A DNA stretch of 64,000 bases from contig JAKPKV010000137.1 in assembly GCA_029553475.1 (NCBI GenBank), positions 1-64,000 of the forward strand. Reading direction: 5' to 3'. Position numbers and translations under genes: made by a program. Numbering within the stretch: position 1 is the first letter of the stretch; every line of letters starts with the position of its first letter. This DNA is from Armatimonadota bacterium. Lineage in GTDB: Bacteria > Armatimonadota > Hebobacteria > CAIYQO01. The notes under the pieces were generated by a model. The model had not been told where the DNA came from. It did no database searches and saw nothing but the letters and a program-made list of their open reading frames with translations. Of the stretch, positions 3,311 through 36,570 are shown piece after piece.

Positions 3311-3885
3311 ATAATAAAGATACACTGGTCGGATTTTCGAATCGGTTTCTGGAAGCCCTTCAGCCCGCATGGACAGGAATCGCGGGATGCGATTCTCGCA
3401 CGGAAAGCCCGGGAGATTGCGGTAAACGGCTGGACGTTCTGGTCGTTTCAACGTCGCGACATTTCGCCCTGGGCGGGACAGTTTGAGCGCATCCGGCCAT
3501 CTTCGGTTTATGTGCTCTGCTCCGACAGCCAAGGAGCCACCGAGCCGAAAGGCGCCGTGGTATTTTTTACAGAGAGTTTCGCATGGGCGAGGCCACCGAC
3601 TGGCAGACGATTCCCCCACCGATCAGCGTGCCGCACCCGATCGGACAGAAGGCAGAAGCCAGTGCATTCGTCGTGAAACGCATTCTACAGCCCAACGACT
3701 TCGCCGGGGAAGACCCGTTGTTGACCATTGAACGGTTCTGCACGCAGCAAAGAACCTGGCGCACTGGCGCCTTGCCCACGCGGGGGGGGGGGTATCTGAT
3801 CCGTCGCGGCGGCACGACCGCACTGCGCAAGGTTTACGCGGTCCTCGAATTGGCAGCCCCACATGTCGCCGTGTTGCGAAAGTGA
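3311..3885 (+). pseudogene. Broken conserved gene inside the type I restriction locus (start loss plus frameshift)
   Basis: A perfect GGAGGAG ribosome site (3301-3307) is followed by ATA-ATA-AAG instead of an ATG. From there frame 2 encodes a coherent protein (IHWSDFRIGFWKPFS, then NGWTFWSFQRRDISPW, then VYVLCSDSQGA) up to about 3583. The sense continues in frame 1 from about 3585 (EATDWQTIPPPISVPHPIG, then AFVVKRIL, PTRG, LIRRGG and LRKVYAVLELAAPHVA) to a TGA at 3883-3885. One missing base near 3583-3592 explains the switch. An 11-G run at 3782-3792 keeps frame. I do not recognise the family. A separate start-codon change and a frameshift suggest real decay, though sequencing errors cannot be excluded. 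Confidence 0.6.
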
Positions 3886-27141: not shown

Positions 27142-27489
27142 GTATCTGTTCACGTTTTTGCGTCTGTGTCCTGATCGAAGCAACCTAACCCCCCGCCCCC
27201 CTTCCCTGAGAGGGAAGGGGGAGTGATGGGGTGCAGATCCGGTGCTCCCCTTCCCTCGATGCTCTTTGGCAAATGAATACCGCGTTGCTCGGTATCCGGT
27301 TCGTCGGCCCGGTCCGGTGAGTCCACGCCGGTGGACTTCGTTTCTCCAGCCCCGGATTTCAATCCGGGGGACGCTGTCGGTGCACAGCCCACCAAAGCGG
27401 TATTCATTTGTCAAAGAGCATCGAGGGAAGGGGGGGGGGAGAGGTGTGCGCGCGGATGGCAAGGCACGCCGAGAAACGTGAACAGATAC
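27142..27489. repeat. MITE-like composite element with nested inverted repeats
   Basis: Outer 16-bp perfect terminal inverted repeats (GTATCTGTTCACGTTT at 27142-27157, complement at 27474-27489) enclose a second pair of 37-bp arms with one mismatch (27247-27283 and 27397-27433). A CCCCCTTCCCT/AGGGAAGGGGG hairpin lies near 27196-27222. The central 89 bases (27286-27374) match 36376-36464 in inverted orientation. No coding capacity is visible. It fills most of the 27089-27577 gap. Confidence 0.75.
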
Positions 27490-27504
27490 CGTGTCGTCCG
27501 CCCG

Positions 27505-27533
27505 TAGACATCCCCGCCCCGCGCGCGTATAAT
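27505..27533 (+). promoter_or_regulatory. lepA promoter
   Basis: TAGACA (27505-27510) and TATAAT (27528-27533) are 17 bases apart and lie 44 bases before the lepA ATG. Confidence 0.7.
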
Positions 27534-27577
27534 GAGACGCCTCGGAACGCGGATTTCGGGGCGTTTCGCGTGTTTTT

Positions 27578-29380
<1,803 letters not shown>

Positions 29381-29556
29381 CCTCCGGCATGAAGAGTGCG
29401 GGCTCAGCAGGCGGATCCGCGCTGCCGCGGCGCACGGCGCGGTGACAGGGTGGTGAAAATTTGATGGTGCCCGTATGGACAGCATGACAGGTGGCATGAT
29501 AATATTCACCACAAAGCAAGCGCTTCGTACTTGAAACCATCAGAATTGGGCGCGGC

Positions 29557-31063
29557 ATGCGAGACCGGCGATGGGATCGGTATCTCGGAGGCGTCCTCCT
29601 GCTCCTAGGCATGCTCGCCTGCGCGCCTGCGCACGGTAACGCCCCCCCCGCCCATCGCCATCATCCCCCAGGACGGCTTCAACCTGGAAGTGGTTGACCA
29701 GGTCACTCCCCACTACGTCATCGTCCAGCTCGCCTCTCCCGCCCACAACTGGTTCGCCGGCACCTTCACCAACCTCCCTACCGACACCGAGGTCACCATC
29801 GGCCTCTCCATGGCGGGCAACGACACCAAGGGCAACGCCGCCGATGTGAAAAAATGGATGGGGCTGATGCCGATGATGACCTACGCCGACCCCACGCAGT
29901 ACGAGACGTACGAGTGGTTCACGAAGGACAAAGACGGCCGGTGGGTGAGTGGAGACCCGTTCAAACAGGGGGAGGCGAAATGCGCCGGGGCCGGCAAGGT
30001 ACCCGACCAGACGGTGATCCCGAAGGAGGTGGCCGAGCAGTTCCTATCACAGGATGGGACGTACTGGCAAGCGTGGCGGGAAGTAGATAAAGCAGAGGCG
30101 GTGACGGGAATCAACGTCTTTCGCATCACACAGCAATTTACACTTCCTACGGCTACTATCGCGATGCGAGTGCCATTTAATTACACCTATCTACAATTGC
30201 TACATGAAAAAATCAGGAATGCGAAATTTCCAGGAGTTACTTTAGAGCTGATAGGAACCTCTGGAGAGGGTAGACCACTAAACATAATACGGCTTGATCC
30301 TTTGGACAAAGAATGGTTCGAGACTTGTCCGACAGTTATTGTTTATGCACGTGAACATGCAACAGAGCATGATAGTAGTTGGGCTGTTATGGGAATGCTG
30401 AGAAGGTTTCTGTTAGCAGATCCAACACAGCGGAAAGTCCGTTGGCTATTAGTGCCGATCCTAATGCCTGACAAAGCAATATCATCATCATTTGAACTTG
30501 GGGATTACTTCCGAGCAGTGAAGCCTGTTATGCCCGAGATAATTTCTTATGCAACATACTTTGTTAACTTGATAAATAAGGGGAAAAGGCTTGATATCGT
30601 TATAAACATACACAACATTGAATGTAATGAAGGCGCAAACATCGAATGTCCGATGGTTAACAGAATATATAAAGAAGTTGTGTATAATCAAAACGATATG
30701 TTATTTAAAGAAGCAAATAATTACGGTTATTCAGCTGGCTCTCCAAGTGGATGGGATCACGGAATAATGGGGCTTCGTTTATCAGGATGGTGTTTCGTGA
30801 AATTTCGTACACTCGATCTATATTACGAAGTGAATTCACGTTACCCACGGTGTAAAATGACGCTCTCTCAATCCCAACAACTCGGGGCAGTGATTGCATT
30901 GTCAACGAATACATTTACAACGAGCGCACATTATCGTGTGCTGCGGGATGAAATGACAAAGTGGCTTTCTCAACGTCAGAGTCATCGTGAAGAATGGTGG
31001 AAACAGATAGGGCACTCAGAAAATCAGCGCACGGAATTTGATCTGCTGACTATGGGATATTAA
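29557..31063 (+). CDS. M14-family zinc carboxypeptidase, lipoprotein signal joined by a frameshift
   Basis: The ATG at 29557 encodes a signal peptide with lipobox-like LGMLAC. A run of eight C (29642-29649) then shifts the frame by one, and the sense continues (PIAIIPQDGFNLEVVDQVTP) to the stop at 31063. Without the shift the first start in the long frame is a GTG at 29690, which lacks any export signal. An N-terminal beta domain like that of cytosolic-carboxypeptidase-type M14 enzymes precedes the peptidase domain. In numbering from the GTG, zinc ligands are H223-x-x-E226 and H308, and Glu380 in YYEVN fits the general base. Base composition drops sharply within the gene near 30050-30130. Confidence 0.75.
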
Positions 31064-31081
31064 TGAACGGAGGAAAGGCTC

Positions 31082-33199
31082 ATACGTCCACATAAATATA
31101 TCGTCATTACGGGCATCTTCAGTTTATTAGTATTGTTAGGCATAACTATCACGGTAGCGTATGGGCGTTGGGGTAGAAGTGGGTTTTCCGGAGTCACAAG
31201 CCTCACATTGACTTGTAGCAAAGATCAGCAATCGATAGAACTTGGCACAACAGGTTTGGTCGTAGGATGGGGTGTGCAAGTTAGTGGCGGTGAAGGTGCT
31301 GATATTGAGGGTAATGTTGCACTCACGCGTATCTCACCGTCTTGGAAAGATGACGACTTTTTTACGACGGGGGCTGACGGTTCGGATTCATCTACAACGA
31401 CAGAGTTGGATGGTGTTATACCGAAAAGTGCCGGTACATATTCACCCAGTACTTCTGGGGTCTACCAATACCGCGCTGTTTTGTGGAATAGAAATACAAA
31501 CGGTCAGATGGTGCCAGTTGAATCTTCGAATATCGTAACTGTGACCGTCGTAGATACCACGCCCCCAGCGATTACATTCATACAACCCGCAGTCGATGAG
31601 AAAGTTAGCGGAGCATCTGTGCAGATTAGTGCCACTCTAACAGACTTGTCAGACGTACTTAATGCGAAAGTATATATTGATGACACGTTTAAAGGCAATA
31701 TGACAAAGGCGGGTGACAACTGGACGTACTCCTGGAATGCAACAGGAACAGCGGAAGGCTATCACACTATAAAAATTATCGCACAAGACAACTCACCATC
31801 ACGGAACGAGGCAAATGCTACACGGAGAATCATTGCTAACTACAGCTTACCTAGTGTAAGTATTGCAAAGCCGGCAGTCGATGGGGAATACGTAAGTGGC
31901 ACGGTTGCTGTCAAGGCATATGCTCATGACCCATCAGGCATTAACGTCGTAAAACTCTACGTCGACGACATTTTTAAAGGTGACATGACAATTCCACAAG
32001 GCGCCGACTATTACACTTACAACTGGAACACAACAGGAACGACTCCGGGGAATCATGTGATTAGTGTCAAGGCCATTGATCAGTCACCTATGCAGAACGA
32101 GAATACTGCCACCCGGAGCGTATATGCCCATCCTTCTGTTACAATCGATCAGATTAGCTTTACGGGTGATCATACCTTGTGGAATAGACAAAGCGATGTA
32201 GCAATAGCACGTCCACAATGGACAGCTTCCGTGACAAAACCAATTGCGTATACGATAAGCTCGACGATGACATCTGATGCTAGGTTAACCTCCAGCACAG
32301 TTACTGGGAGCGTGAATATTCGCTATGCAGTTACCGGCACATGGAGCGATACACAAACTTACTCAAGCGATGTATCAACAACAGGATCGTTCCCTCGTTC
32401 GTTGTCCCATACATTCACAGCAAGAAACCGTGCAAAAAGTTATTCGTTATCGCAACAGTATACAATATATGTTCGGAAGAGTAACAACAGTGATTGGGCA
32501 CAAGCAGGAACAGTTACGGCGACACACCAGGAAGTGTTTTTGACATTCAATATTCCAATCAGCCCTTGGGGAGCAACTTCAGCTACACCACCGGTCACAA
32601 GGACTTGCTGGAGTCGAGTACTCAAGAAAGCATCAGATTGGTTAGCTGCCGGTATTGCTCCAGATGGGCAAAATGGGTATACTTCCACATATACAACTGA
32701 AGCCTATACGCAACTTGCAGAGAAAGCCTATACAAGCTCTGGCATGAATTACGATGGATTAGATAGTCATTACCAAGTTAGATTCAGTAGTGGAACTCCC
32801 GTGGCAGTACGTTTCAGTCTTTGGGATTTCATGGATCAAACGGCAGCGGACTGTCAAGATATGTCGCTCTGGTGGGAGGTGCTCTGTCACAGTGTCGGAC
32901 TTTCCGCTCAAGCCCAAAGGATTGGTGGACCTTTCGGGTATCAATCCCTTGATCCAGTCGGTACTCCAAGTTGGAATACTGCTATATGGAACTTTCACCA
33001 TGTTGGCATGACAGGATCGGTAGTATATGATCCCTGCATAAGAATTATGCCATCCGCACCATATGTTCCGACCAACATGACGATGTCCGCATATAAATCA
33101 AGGGTGTTTGATTATGGAACTTGGGACGATACGACTTACCCGCCGTTTGTTTTAGGCGCGATAGACCTTTATTATGGATTACCTTCGGAGGTGGATTAA
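31082..33199 (+). CDS. Exported Ig-repeat protein with transglutaminase-like C-terminal domain
   Basis: GGAGG just after the previous stop points to ATA at 31082, not a standard start. The next usable codon, TTG at 31133, would cut into the hydrophobic segment (YIVITGIFSLLVLLGITI). About 705 residues from the ATA. Two Ig-like repeats follow (DTTPPAITFIQPAVDEKVSG and PSVSIAKPAVDGEYVSGTV, each with a KVYIDD/KLYVDD strand). The C-terminal domain has Cys591 (ADCQDM), His639/640 (NFHHVG) and Asp650 (VYDPC), the order and spacing of a transglutaminase/papain-like triad. Activity is inference. It is AT-rich, in an operon with the M14 peptidase and the next gene. Confidence 0.7.
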   Translation: MRPHKYIVITGIFSLLVLLGITITVAYGRWGRSGFSGVTSLTLTCSKDQQSIELGTTGLVVGWGVQVSGGEGADIEGNVALTRISPSWKDDDFFTTGADGSDSSTTTELDGVIPKSAGTYSPSTSGVYQYRAVLWNRNTNGQMVPVESSNIVTVTVVDTTPPAITFIQPAVDEKVSGASVQISATLTDLSDVLNAKVYIDDTFKGNMTKAGDNWTYSWNATGTAEGYHTIKIIAQDNSPSRNEANATRRIIANYSLPSVSIAKPAVDGEYVSGTVAVKAYAHDPSGINVVKLYVDDIFKGDMTIPQGADYYTYNWNTTGTTPGNHVISVKAIDQSPMQNENTATRSVYAHPSVTIDQISFTGDHTLWNRQSDVAIARPQWTASVTKPIAYTISSTMTSDARLTSSTVTGSVNIRYAVTGTWSDTQTYSSDVSTTGSFPRSLSHTFTARNRAKSYSLSQQYTIYVRKSNNSDWAQAGTVTATHQEVFLTFNIPISPWGATSATPPVTRTCWSRVLKKASDWLAAGIAPDGQNGYTSTYTTEAYTQLAEKAYTSSGMNYDGLDSHYQVRFSSGTPVAVRFSLWDFMDQTAADCQDMSLWWEVLCHSVGLSAQAQRIGGPFGYQSLDPVGTPSWNTAIWNFHHVGMTGSVVYDPCIRIMPSAPYVPTNMTMSAYKSRVFDYGTWDDTTYPPFVLGAIDLYYGLPSEVD

Positions 33200-33200
33200 G

Positions 33201-34265
33201 ATGGTTTCTTTTGCTCATGGCCGATGGGTTATGGCAATATTGTTGTGCATCAGTTGCGCCATTACTATACTGGTGTTCGTCATGCGACCTAAATTACTAT
33301 TTGGCGCCGGCGACTGTATCACACCGGAACAAGGAGCATCGCTCATTGTTTCTCGTGACCTTCTTTTGAGTGACTTTATTCCCTTCTCACTTGAAGTCAC
33401 ACAAGAAAAGAATGCACTTACAATACGAGAACTATGGTTTGGGGAACCTTTGGCTGATATTGATCGTGCAAGTAGCCGTGTATTGGTATCTATCTATGTC
33501 GTGCCATCGAAAGATAATGCGAAGAGAATGGCGAATCTATTACTCGATTCCGTTGCGGTATCACCAACTGATGTGACCAATACAGAACCCTACAACACCT
33601 TTAGCGATTCTGCCTGGATTGGTCCGACGCGACTCCTACAAATACGGGCGAATGTCTTATGTGATATTGTTGTGACCACCAATGATGCTGAAAAAGGCCA
33701 GAAGCAACTAATCACTATTGGAAAAGAGCTCGGAAAGAGGGTCGACACTCTATTATCCGGGAAGCCACTTCCTGTTCCATCAGGGCTACCAGTGTTTGCC
33801 AATGAATTACACATCGGATTACGCGATGCCTGGAACACACGAAATATTGGCACGACTTTATGGGGCAAGGACAGCACTTCTGTATCGGTATCTTTTAAGA
33901 ACAGCATTATTCGTCAGATACCAGCAAAGCTCATTGATCAAAGTAGACGTGAGTACCTTGTACCCCTTGCACATATCATTGGAATTATTGATCCTGCCGC
34001 TCGCTTTGATATTGAAGGTGGGCGTGCAAATGGACGAGTTTTGAATAAAGAGATCATGATTAGCCATCAAAATAACCAGGTAAGATATGATACGCGTATT
34101 GTAAGCATTCTTCATCCGGCAGAGATTAGGTCTAATACTGTACTTGTGCCGATGTCCATACTTGATACGGTGCTTGATCTCAATGTAACATGGAAGAAGG
34201 AAGGTGACCATGAAATTGCTGTGATCACTATGAAGAATATCTCGGAAAGTAGTAAAGTCGAATAG
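33201..34265 (+). CDS. Membrane-anchored protein with stalk-type (copper amine oxidase-like N) domain
   Basis: The start is ATG at 33201, nine bases after GGAGG, one base past the previous stop; an ATG at 33174 overlaps the upstream gene and has no ribosome site. About 354 residues. One N-terminal transmembrane helix (VMAILLCISCAITILVFV) is followed by an unfamiliar domain. The last 100 residues match the stalk-domain pattern: LVPLAHIIGI, AARFDIEGG, NTVLVPMSILDTVLDLNVTW, EIAVITM. Such domains usually hold extracellular proteins at the envelope. It is third in the AT-rich operon, so it may position the peptidase and the Ig/transglutaminase protein. Partner roles are inferred from context only. 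Confidence 0.65.
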   Translation: MVSFAHGRWVMAILLCISCAITILVFVMRPKLLFGAGDCITPEQGASLIVSRDLLLSDFIPFSLEVTQEKNALTIRELWFGEPLADIDRASSRVLVSIYVVPSKDNAKRMANLLLDSVAVSPTDVTNTEPYNTFSDSAWIGPTRLLQIRANVLCDIVVTTNDAEKGQKQLITIGKELGKRVDTLLSGKPLPVPSGLPVFANELHIGLRDAWNTRNIGTTLWGKDSTSVSVSFKNSIIRQIPAKLIDQSRREYLVPLAHIIGIIDPAARFDIEGGRANGRVLNKEIMISHQNNQVRYDTRIVSILHPAEIRSNTVLVPMSILDTVLDLNVTWKKEGDHEIAVITMKNISESSKVE

Positions 34266-34429
34266 AAATCTATTGCATGTTGCTCTGCCAAATTTGACTT
34301 TATAATGTGAAACTGACGTATAAATGGAAATAAGGGACTGGAAATACGGGGCAGCCTCCGGTGTCCCCTGTTTGCGATGTCAGCTCCCCCAGCCGCTTGA
34401 TCTCTTCCCGCTGCGTCGCGACTTCCCCG

Positions 34430-35008
34430 CTACCCGCCCGCGCCGGCTAGGTAGGCGTCGAGTGTCACGCAGGGCACGCCGATATTCATGATGTCGTGAA
34501 TGTTGGCGGCGGCGATCTCCGGCGTTTGTGCGGAGGTGGCGTCGGTGATGTTCGTCACCCGGTAGCCCAGCGCCACCGCGTCGAAGATGCTGGCGCGGAT
34601 GCAGTTCGGGTATTGCGTGCCGCAGATGACCAGGTCGGCAGCGCCCAGGCGGCGCAGCATCAGGTCGAGCTCGGTCAGCATGAAGGCGCTGAAGCGGTTC
34701 TTCACCAGGCGATACTCACCCGGCAGCGGGGTCAGCGCCGCCACGATCGCGCAGCCGGGCGTGCCGGGCACCAGGTAGGGCTGCCCGCGCACAAACCCGT
34801 CCAGCCGCGGCAGCTCGATATCGCTGCCGTCCGCCCGATACTCCCGGACGACGTGAAAGATGGGATCCCGGCGGCTCCGGAACGCCTCGAGCAGGCGGCG
34901 AATGACCGGCACCGTCGCCGCCGCTCCCGCCACGCACGCCGGCGCGCCGGGCAGCACGAAATCGTTCTGCATGTCCACGATGATCAGCGCGCGGCGCGTT
35001 GCCGACAT
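34430..35008 (-). CDS. Isochorismatase-fold cysteine hydrolase (nicotinamidase-like)
   Basis: 192 residues, normal for the family. The catalytic triad is visible as Asp12 (IIVDMQNDF), Lys103 (LVKNRFSAF) and Cys136 (GTQYPNCIRAS), with the cis-peptide region just before the Cys. Members hydrolyse amides or vinyl ethers such as nicotinamide or carbamoyl-sarcosine. No metal-binding DxH motif typical of nicotinamidase stands out, so the substrate is open. It is last of a three-gene set with a MarR regulator and an IscU-like scaffold (gap 41 bases). The gap to the stalk-domain gene shows no further gene. Confidence 0.9.
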   Translation of the reverse strand: MSATRRALIIVDMQNDFVLPGAPACVAGAAATVPVIRRLLEAFRSRRDPIFHVVREYRADGSDIELPRLDGFVRGQPYLVPGTPGCAIVAALTPLPGEYRLVKNRFSAFMLTELDLMLRRLGAADLVICGTQYPNCIRASIFDAVALGYRVTNITDATSAQTPEIAAANIHDIMNIGVPCVTLDAYLAGAGG

Positions 35009-36281: not shown

Positions 36282-36374
36282 GGGGCCGCGGAGTTGTACT
36301 CCGCATGCATTGCTACACAGATCTATCAGATAATCCATGTTGCAGATGCGTACGGAGTACAACTCCGCGGCCCC
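36282..36374. repeat. Hairpin repeat with 24-bp arms (one mismatch)
   Basis: Arms 36282-36305 and 36351-36374 pair over 24 bases with one mismatch (GGGGCCGCGGAGTTGTACTC...). The 45-base loop has no coding sense. It is directly followed by the dispersed 89-base repeat. Together they fill most of the gap between the MarR and AraC genes. Confidence 0.75.
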
Positions 36375-36375
36375 A

Positions 36376-36464
36376 GCGTCCCCCGGATGCACATCCGGGG
36401 CGGGAGAAACGACGTCCACCGGCGTGGATCGGCCGGAGCGGGCCGACCGACCGGATACCGAGCA
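36376..36464 (+). repeat. Dispersed 89-bp repeat, second copy at 27286-27374 (inverted)
   Basis: Read on the plus strand here and the minus strand at 27286-27374, both copies run GCGTCCCCCGGAT..., then ATCCGGGGC, GGAGAAACGA, GTCCACCGGCGTGGA, and end ACCGGATACCGAGCA or close to it. The two copies have the same length and differ at scattered positions. An internal CCCCGGAT/ATCCGGGG hairpin is conserved. It looks non-coding. Confidence 0.7.
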
Positions 36465-36570
36465 CCGCGGGAGTCATGTGGCACAGCGCATAGGGTCACC
36501 CCGCCCTCTGCCGGCGTTCCATCAGTCAGTATGCCGGGCCGTGGCCGGCCCATTGCGGCGGGGAGGCGCT

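Follow-up and report, generated by a model that had tools for sequence, protein, structure and literature searches.

What does a tight row of three same-strand genes in an Armatimonadota bacterium amount to, when an earlier note on this DNA had taken it for a new secreted system made of an M14 carboxypeptidase, an Ig-repeat enzyme and an anchored stalk-domain protein? We analysed it within a stretch of 64,000 nucleotides, the window, to whose first letter all positions refer. The three long open reading frames are present on the + strand (29609-31063, 31067-33199 and 33165-34265), the gaps of 18 and 1 bases given for them hold when ATA 31082 is taken as the start of ORF2 and ATG 33201 as that of ORF3, and Pfam matches all of M14 peptidase, Ig repeats and stalk domain, the last barely above its cut-off. 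That three exported proteins are encoded does not hold for the DNA as sequenced, in which the M14 signal peptide is off-frame and the best start of ORF2 is an ATA. Unremarked until now were a sharp change of GC within the M14 gene and the repetition of its front, the head, elsewhere in the genome. The reading that we favour, and which could as well prove wrong as right, is that of a chimaeric locus shaped by head/tail exchange, in which ORF2 would be an exported effector enzyme with ORF3 as its partner.

A low-GC segment behind lepA

The locus covers about 5 kb (29388-34440) with a GC content of about 45%, inside a genome of about 66%. Most of the window lies at 60-73% GC, and the stretch from 30,100 to 34,300, mostly at 40-48%, is the sole one of such kind in its 64 kb. 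Homology to the sister species G001 spans 27500-29387 and picks up again from 34441 (blastn, L040), the order there being lepA, an MFS gene (Pfam) and the same isochorismatase gene as in the window. Given this order, and since a search of the window's own genome for the MFS gene of G001 gave nothing at E<=1e-10, the segment occupies the place of the MFS gene. Either of the two may represent the older state of the site, and the genes 3' of lepA differ among other members of the class.

Viral contigs, plasmids and PHROGs were searched for a carrier without a match, so that nothing points to a phage or plasmid. A promoter and terminator scan gave sites at or below chance level, and Rfam gave no match. 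Two inverted copies of a dispersed 118-nt repeat (84%), at 27259-27376 and 36374-36491, lie about 9 kb apart and flank the stretch from lepA to a MarR-like gene on both sides. Elsewhere, at L011:1000-1220, stretches of ~125 and ~64 nt have dozens of matches in G001 and form a dispersed repeat family of the genus.

Features of the locus and of the head copies elsewhere in the same genome (window positions)
Feature	Position	Strand	DNA identity	Basis
Segment without DNA match in sister species G001	29388-34440	.		blastn vs L040
Upstream region, partly common to head copies	29410-29556	+		blastn, alignment
M14 signal-peptide frame (MRDRRWDRYLGGVLLLLGMLACAPAHGNAPP...), ends at stop, out of frame with N-domain	29557-29700	+		translation
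C8 tract breaking the frame	29642-29649	+		translation, alignment with copies
Head: CCP-like N-domain, GC3 about 0.85	29672-30190	+		own-genome search, alignment, identity and GC3 profiles
M14 catalytic domain, GC3 about 0.35	30191-31063	+		Pfam, alignment, composition
ORF2: signal peptide or anchor (from ATA start), two Big_7 Ig repeats, beta-rich region, C-terminal domain	31082-33199	+		
ORF2 C-terminal domain	32537-33196	+		homologues in other genomes, alignment
ORF2 triad codons	C 32852-32854, H 32996-32998, D 33029-33031	+		alignment
ORF3: N-terminal membrane anchor, unnamed domain, C-terminal stalk domain (about 33954-34202)	33201-34265	+		
Head copy C126	29536-30190		81%	blastn
Head copy C123	29644-30174		83%	blastn
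Head copy C193	29643-30174		78%	blastn
Head copy C35	29644-29997		82%	blastn
Head copy C34	29410-29875		74%	blastn
Head copy C126b	29536-29729		79%	blastn

A repeated head with different tails

By its motifs the first protein is a cytosolic-carboxypeptidase-like (CCP-like) M14 peptidase, with HxxE...H zinc ligands and a catalytic Glu. Pfam matches Peptidase_M14 in the first frame (E = 2.1e-5); the window's protein has the zinc-ligand motif EHATE, the third His in IHNIECNE and the Glu in YEVNSRYP, and the columns of the first His, first Glu and catalytic Glu are invariant across five M14 sequences. Against 4b6z and 3k2k the M14 profile aligns from position 139 and so covers no more than the end of the N-domain. 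Within this gene, GC3 drops from 0.85 to 0.35 at ~30,150-30,190. At the same step, about 30,140-30,200, identity in the codon alignment with C126, the best full-length copy and our reference for this step, falls abruptly from 0.82-0.90 to 0.45-0.50. The head consists of the first ~620 bp of the gene, with upstream region, signal peptide and N-domain, at a GC3 of ~0.85. Judging from composition and identity, the locus is a chimaera of two origins, a resident GC-rich head and a low-GC tail.

The signal peptide begins at ATG 29557, and the C8 tract puts it off-frame from the M14 ORF. The tract is C7 in the in-frame C126 copy, while in the C193 copy it is likewise one base too long. Both the C8 tract and the ATA start of ORF2 may reflect sequencing error, slippage or decay. 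Other long G runs, of 8-11 bases, occur in the window at 3782, 27430, 48868 and 55769, and bear on the trust to be placed in homopolymer lengths. Upstream, a promoter-like TGGACA-16-GATAAT lies at 29476-29503, a type of site found at chance density overall; the match to this upstream region starts at 29410 in C34 and at 29536 in C126 and C126b.

A search with the M14 protein found seven more clear matches in the window's own genome. At six of them the similarity extends to the DNA of the gene's front: those on C126, C123, C193, C35 and C34, and a second one on C126 (C126b). The heads on C35, C34 and at C126b are truncated, each at a different point, and the alignment shows C34 to be a mosaic in which one leader type upstream is joined to the other type downstream. 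The N-domains of the window, C126, C123 and C193 share 78-84% amino-acid identity, whereas the catalytic domains of the window, C126 and C123 are merely 34-40% identical; against the orthologue in G002 the values are 56-60% for N-domains and 37-45% for catalytic domains. The M14 gene of C151 is low in GC and has an N-domain of its own, at 40-44% identity to the others. At L014:4474-6276 such a low-GC gene, with a separate N-domain, is read on through one TGA by a profile search. The M14 genes in G002 and G001 are of ordinary composition, and those on G002 C341 and in G001 adjoin exported HEAT-repeat proteins. Trees of N-domains and of catalytic domains showed no significant topology conflict, so the decoupling of the two domains rests on distances, composition and the identity step. 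We infer that recombination recurred at the resident head, of which the trees alone are no proof.

As in the window, low-GC tails stand behind the heads in C126, C123 and C193, and their contents vary. On C126 the M14 gene is followed by an Ig-like protein with a carboxypeptidase-regulatory domain at its end and by a small exported HEAT-like protein; on C123 an M14 in two frames is followed by Ig-like proteins, a trunk protein and then another exported protein. On C193 the head shares one reading frame with a 1604-aa Ig-array protein, behind which comes an ankyrin-repeat gene. The proteins of C123 and C193 have a trunk in common (24% over 718 aa, E=5e-28) and different C-terminal ends, that of C123 carrying HELGHAAGTGH, a zincin-like motif. 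C151 has an M14, an Ig-like protein and unnamed proteins, and C126b a head remnant plus a low-GC gene. The ankyrin-repeat protein directly behind the 1604-aa protein (L013:10430-11653) has a zinc-ribbon-like start and is a candidate immunity gene; in G001 an ankyrin-repeat gene (L058:532-1806) sits at the place that corresponds to the end of the C126 tail. Inspection by eye revealed no common 3' end of the tails, and on those searched we found neither a Pfam or NCBIfam toxin model nor a known immunity model.

The ORF2-ORF3 pair

The Ig repeats of ORF2 match Pfam Big_7 at E = 1.9e-18. The only well-placed start of this gene is the ATA at 31082, behind a GGAGG at 31070; the first canonical one, TTG 31133, would cut off the front of the signal peptide. 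The Cys, His and Asp residues pointed out before are there, and in a three-sequence alignment of the window, G215 and G015 C590, D592, H638 and D649 are invariant, the last ~450 residues being conserved among the aligned sequences. In a local profile alignment against 13 transglutaminase cores the ORF2 Cys falls, weakly, on the catalytic Cys (P 0.0097), and the alignment score of the Cys helix, 22.8, is above those of all 60 column shuffles (maximum 19.7). The suggestion of a Cys-His-Asp enzyme with a transglutaminase fold is thus borne out for the triad and, weakly, for the register of the Cys helix, but not by Pfam, where the C-terminal domain of none of the four members has a match up to E=5; no credible PDB relative was found for it either. 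AlphaFold gave the C-terminal part a pLDDT of 30 on three rows, with the window plus one broken relative and the intact relatives left out. With no Pfam match and this pLDDT, a transglutaminase fold stays at plausible.

ORF3 starts at ATG 33201 behind a GGAGG. Its Cu_amine_oxidN1 stalk domain scores 24.3 bits against a Pfam cut-off of 24.2, and domain searches returned no named relative for its N-terminal domain of ~200 residues.

Of 291 Armatimonadota genomes, 4 have the C-terminal domain of ORF2 (the window's own, G215, G015 and G009); they belong to four different families, G009 being of the same class as the window, and an ORF3 homologue follows directly at all four loci. The ORF3 profile is strong in these four genomes and in G282, where a homologue without ORF2 lies on a 3-kb contig; its other matches are stalk domains only. 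A contig scan for the ORF2 domain yielded a single locus (L033, Ca. Hebobacteria), because the chosen search patterns missed the triad region. ORF2 and ORF3 are a conserved two-gene unit, adjacent in distant genomes. An M14 gene stands beside this pair in the window and at none of the three other loci, and the other M14 loci, in the same genome and in G002, have neither ORF2 nor ORF3. The conserved linkage proposed for the three genes is therefore found for ORF2 with ORF3 and not for the set; on this distribution, the three genes first flagged are one head/tail join, and no conserved three-part machine.

What the locus may do, and what it resembles

We propose that tails are exchanged by recombination in the conserved head or beside it, much as Rhs C-termini are displaced, and that the tail delivered ORF2 and ORF3, the two-gene unit that distant Armatimonadota have without M14. 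ORF2 would be the exported product of the tail, its Ig repeats presenting the predicted enzyme domain (Cys-His-Asp, papain- or transglutaminase-like) outside the membrane. ORF3, membrane-anchored, would be its dedicated partner, most likely either an immunity protein that shields the producer or one that holds and regulates the enzyme. The M14 part, not exported as sequenced, would be a leftover or a carrier and no working partner of the other two. Considering the constant adjacency, the export signals and the triad, ORF2 would most likely be an effector enzyme that is exported, and ORF3 would serve it as membrane partner or as immunity protein. Against our reading, all four genomes carry the same C-terminal domain of ORF2, with no tail polymorphism inside the ORF2/ORF3 unit.

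A wider version, which we advance tentatively, is that Armatimonadota have a new class of loci for exported effectors that can be swapped. Their fixed front would be the start of a CCP-like M14 gene, from the upstream region over the signal peptide to the N-domain, with a poly-C tract that may turn export on and off, and their tails would bring different enzymes (transglutaminase-like, zincin-like or unnamed), every one accompanied by a membrane or repeat-protein partner of its own.

It is also possible, if rather doubtful, that ORF2 and ORF3 are a housekeeping surface module spread by horizontal transfer and without antagonism, ORF2 being a secreted enzyme that cross-links or processes the cell's own surface proteins and ORF3 an anchor or assembly factor. 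Stalk domains, of the kind matched in ORF3, are usual in surface proteins, the C-terminal domain of ORF2 stays paired with ORF3 across distant families, and in G215 and G015 a TPR gene adjoins the pair. However, a core surface function fits poorly with so patchy a distribution and with damaged copies, and low-GC tails at several sites resemble a turnover system.

Such damage, a frameshift in the ORF2 homologue of G215 and a break in that of G009, could mean that ORF2 is dispensable. Together with the C8 frameshift, the ATA in place of ATG and the truncated heads elsewhere, it might suggest a dead or dying island, a recent acquisition without function in which expression of the M14 protein and of ORF2 is being lost. 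We consider this unlikely: frames of 484, 710 and 366 codons are still open after the acquisition and the catalytic residues of both enzymes are intact, while a homopolymer error in a draft assembly would account for C8 without decay, and slippage at this tract, with the extra base of C193 at the same place, could equally be phase variation.

That the M14 peptidase, ORF2 and ORF3 work as one secreted system of trimming, cross-linking and anchoring is highly improbable: the tight order and well-placed ribosome sites of ORF2 and ORF3, the Ig-like proteins behind the M14 copies on C126, C123 and C151 and, in G002, one M14 gene followed by a small exported beta protein would suit it, but it is at odds with the separate occurrence of M14 and of the pair, the off-frame signal peptide and the two compositional origins of the M14 gene itself.

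Were the chimaeric reading with head/tail exchange true, a peptidase N-domain could act as the fixed front of a tail-swapping locus, a GC-rich head joined to a low-GC tail would offer a simple search for new exported enzymes, and ORF2-ORF3 would be a clean candidate enzyme/partner pair. The open-licence papers searched held no report of M14-headed tail swapping or of such loci in Armatimonadota.

Bacterial CCP-like M14 peptidases (PDB 4b6z, 4a37, 3k2k, 3l2n) likewise have an N-domain followed by the catalytic domain with HxxE...H and a catalytic Glu, but the genes described here have a signal peptide, are multi-copy and chimaeric, and some of their N-domains are split from the catalytic domain. 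ORF2 shares the order C-H-D with transglutaminase- and papain-like enzymes (PF01841; Tox-TGase, PMC3482391), and its Cys opens a helix-like stretch whose end, LCHSVGL, resembles LCRSVGIPAR; it departs from them in lacking a Pfam match, in a short His-Asp spacing of 11 and in a D-C-x-D-M-x-x-W-W signature of its own. ORF3 has a stalk domain at its C-terminus, which it shares with stalk-domain proteins (PF07833), and differs from them in its N-terminal domain.

The closest likeness in overall anatomy is to Rhs and polymorphic toxin displacement, in which an Rhs core of 67.7% GC carries a tip of 46.4%, values strikingly close to those of this locus, and partial cores of varying length occur (PMC2935791), and whose repertoire includes Tox-TGase, Imm-Ank and Imm-HEAT (PMC3482391). 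Here the front is a carboxypeptidase N-domain and not an Rhs/YD core, the tails hold whole M14 domains and separate Ig-repeat genes, with no known toxin domain recognised in them, and the copies are scattered over distant sites instead of being stacked behind one core. As the domain searches gave no match to the Rhs models (YD/Rhs repeats) and no known toxin model, we do not assign these loci to Rhs or polymorphic toxin systems despite their Rhs-like anatomy. Common to both are a conserved GC-rich front, a low-GC variable back whose low GC runs on downstream, partial fronts of various lengths, and ankyrin or HEAT-like repeat genes at the end of some loci. In its sequences, the head family has the fixed front with exchanged backs that is a trait of polymorphic toxins, and ORF2 itself does not; if our reading is right, the idea of Rhs-like displacement would extend to a phylum with little experimental work.
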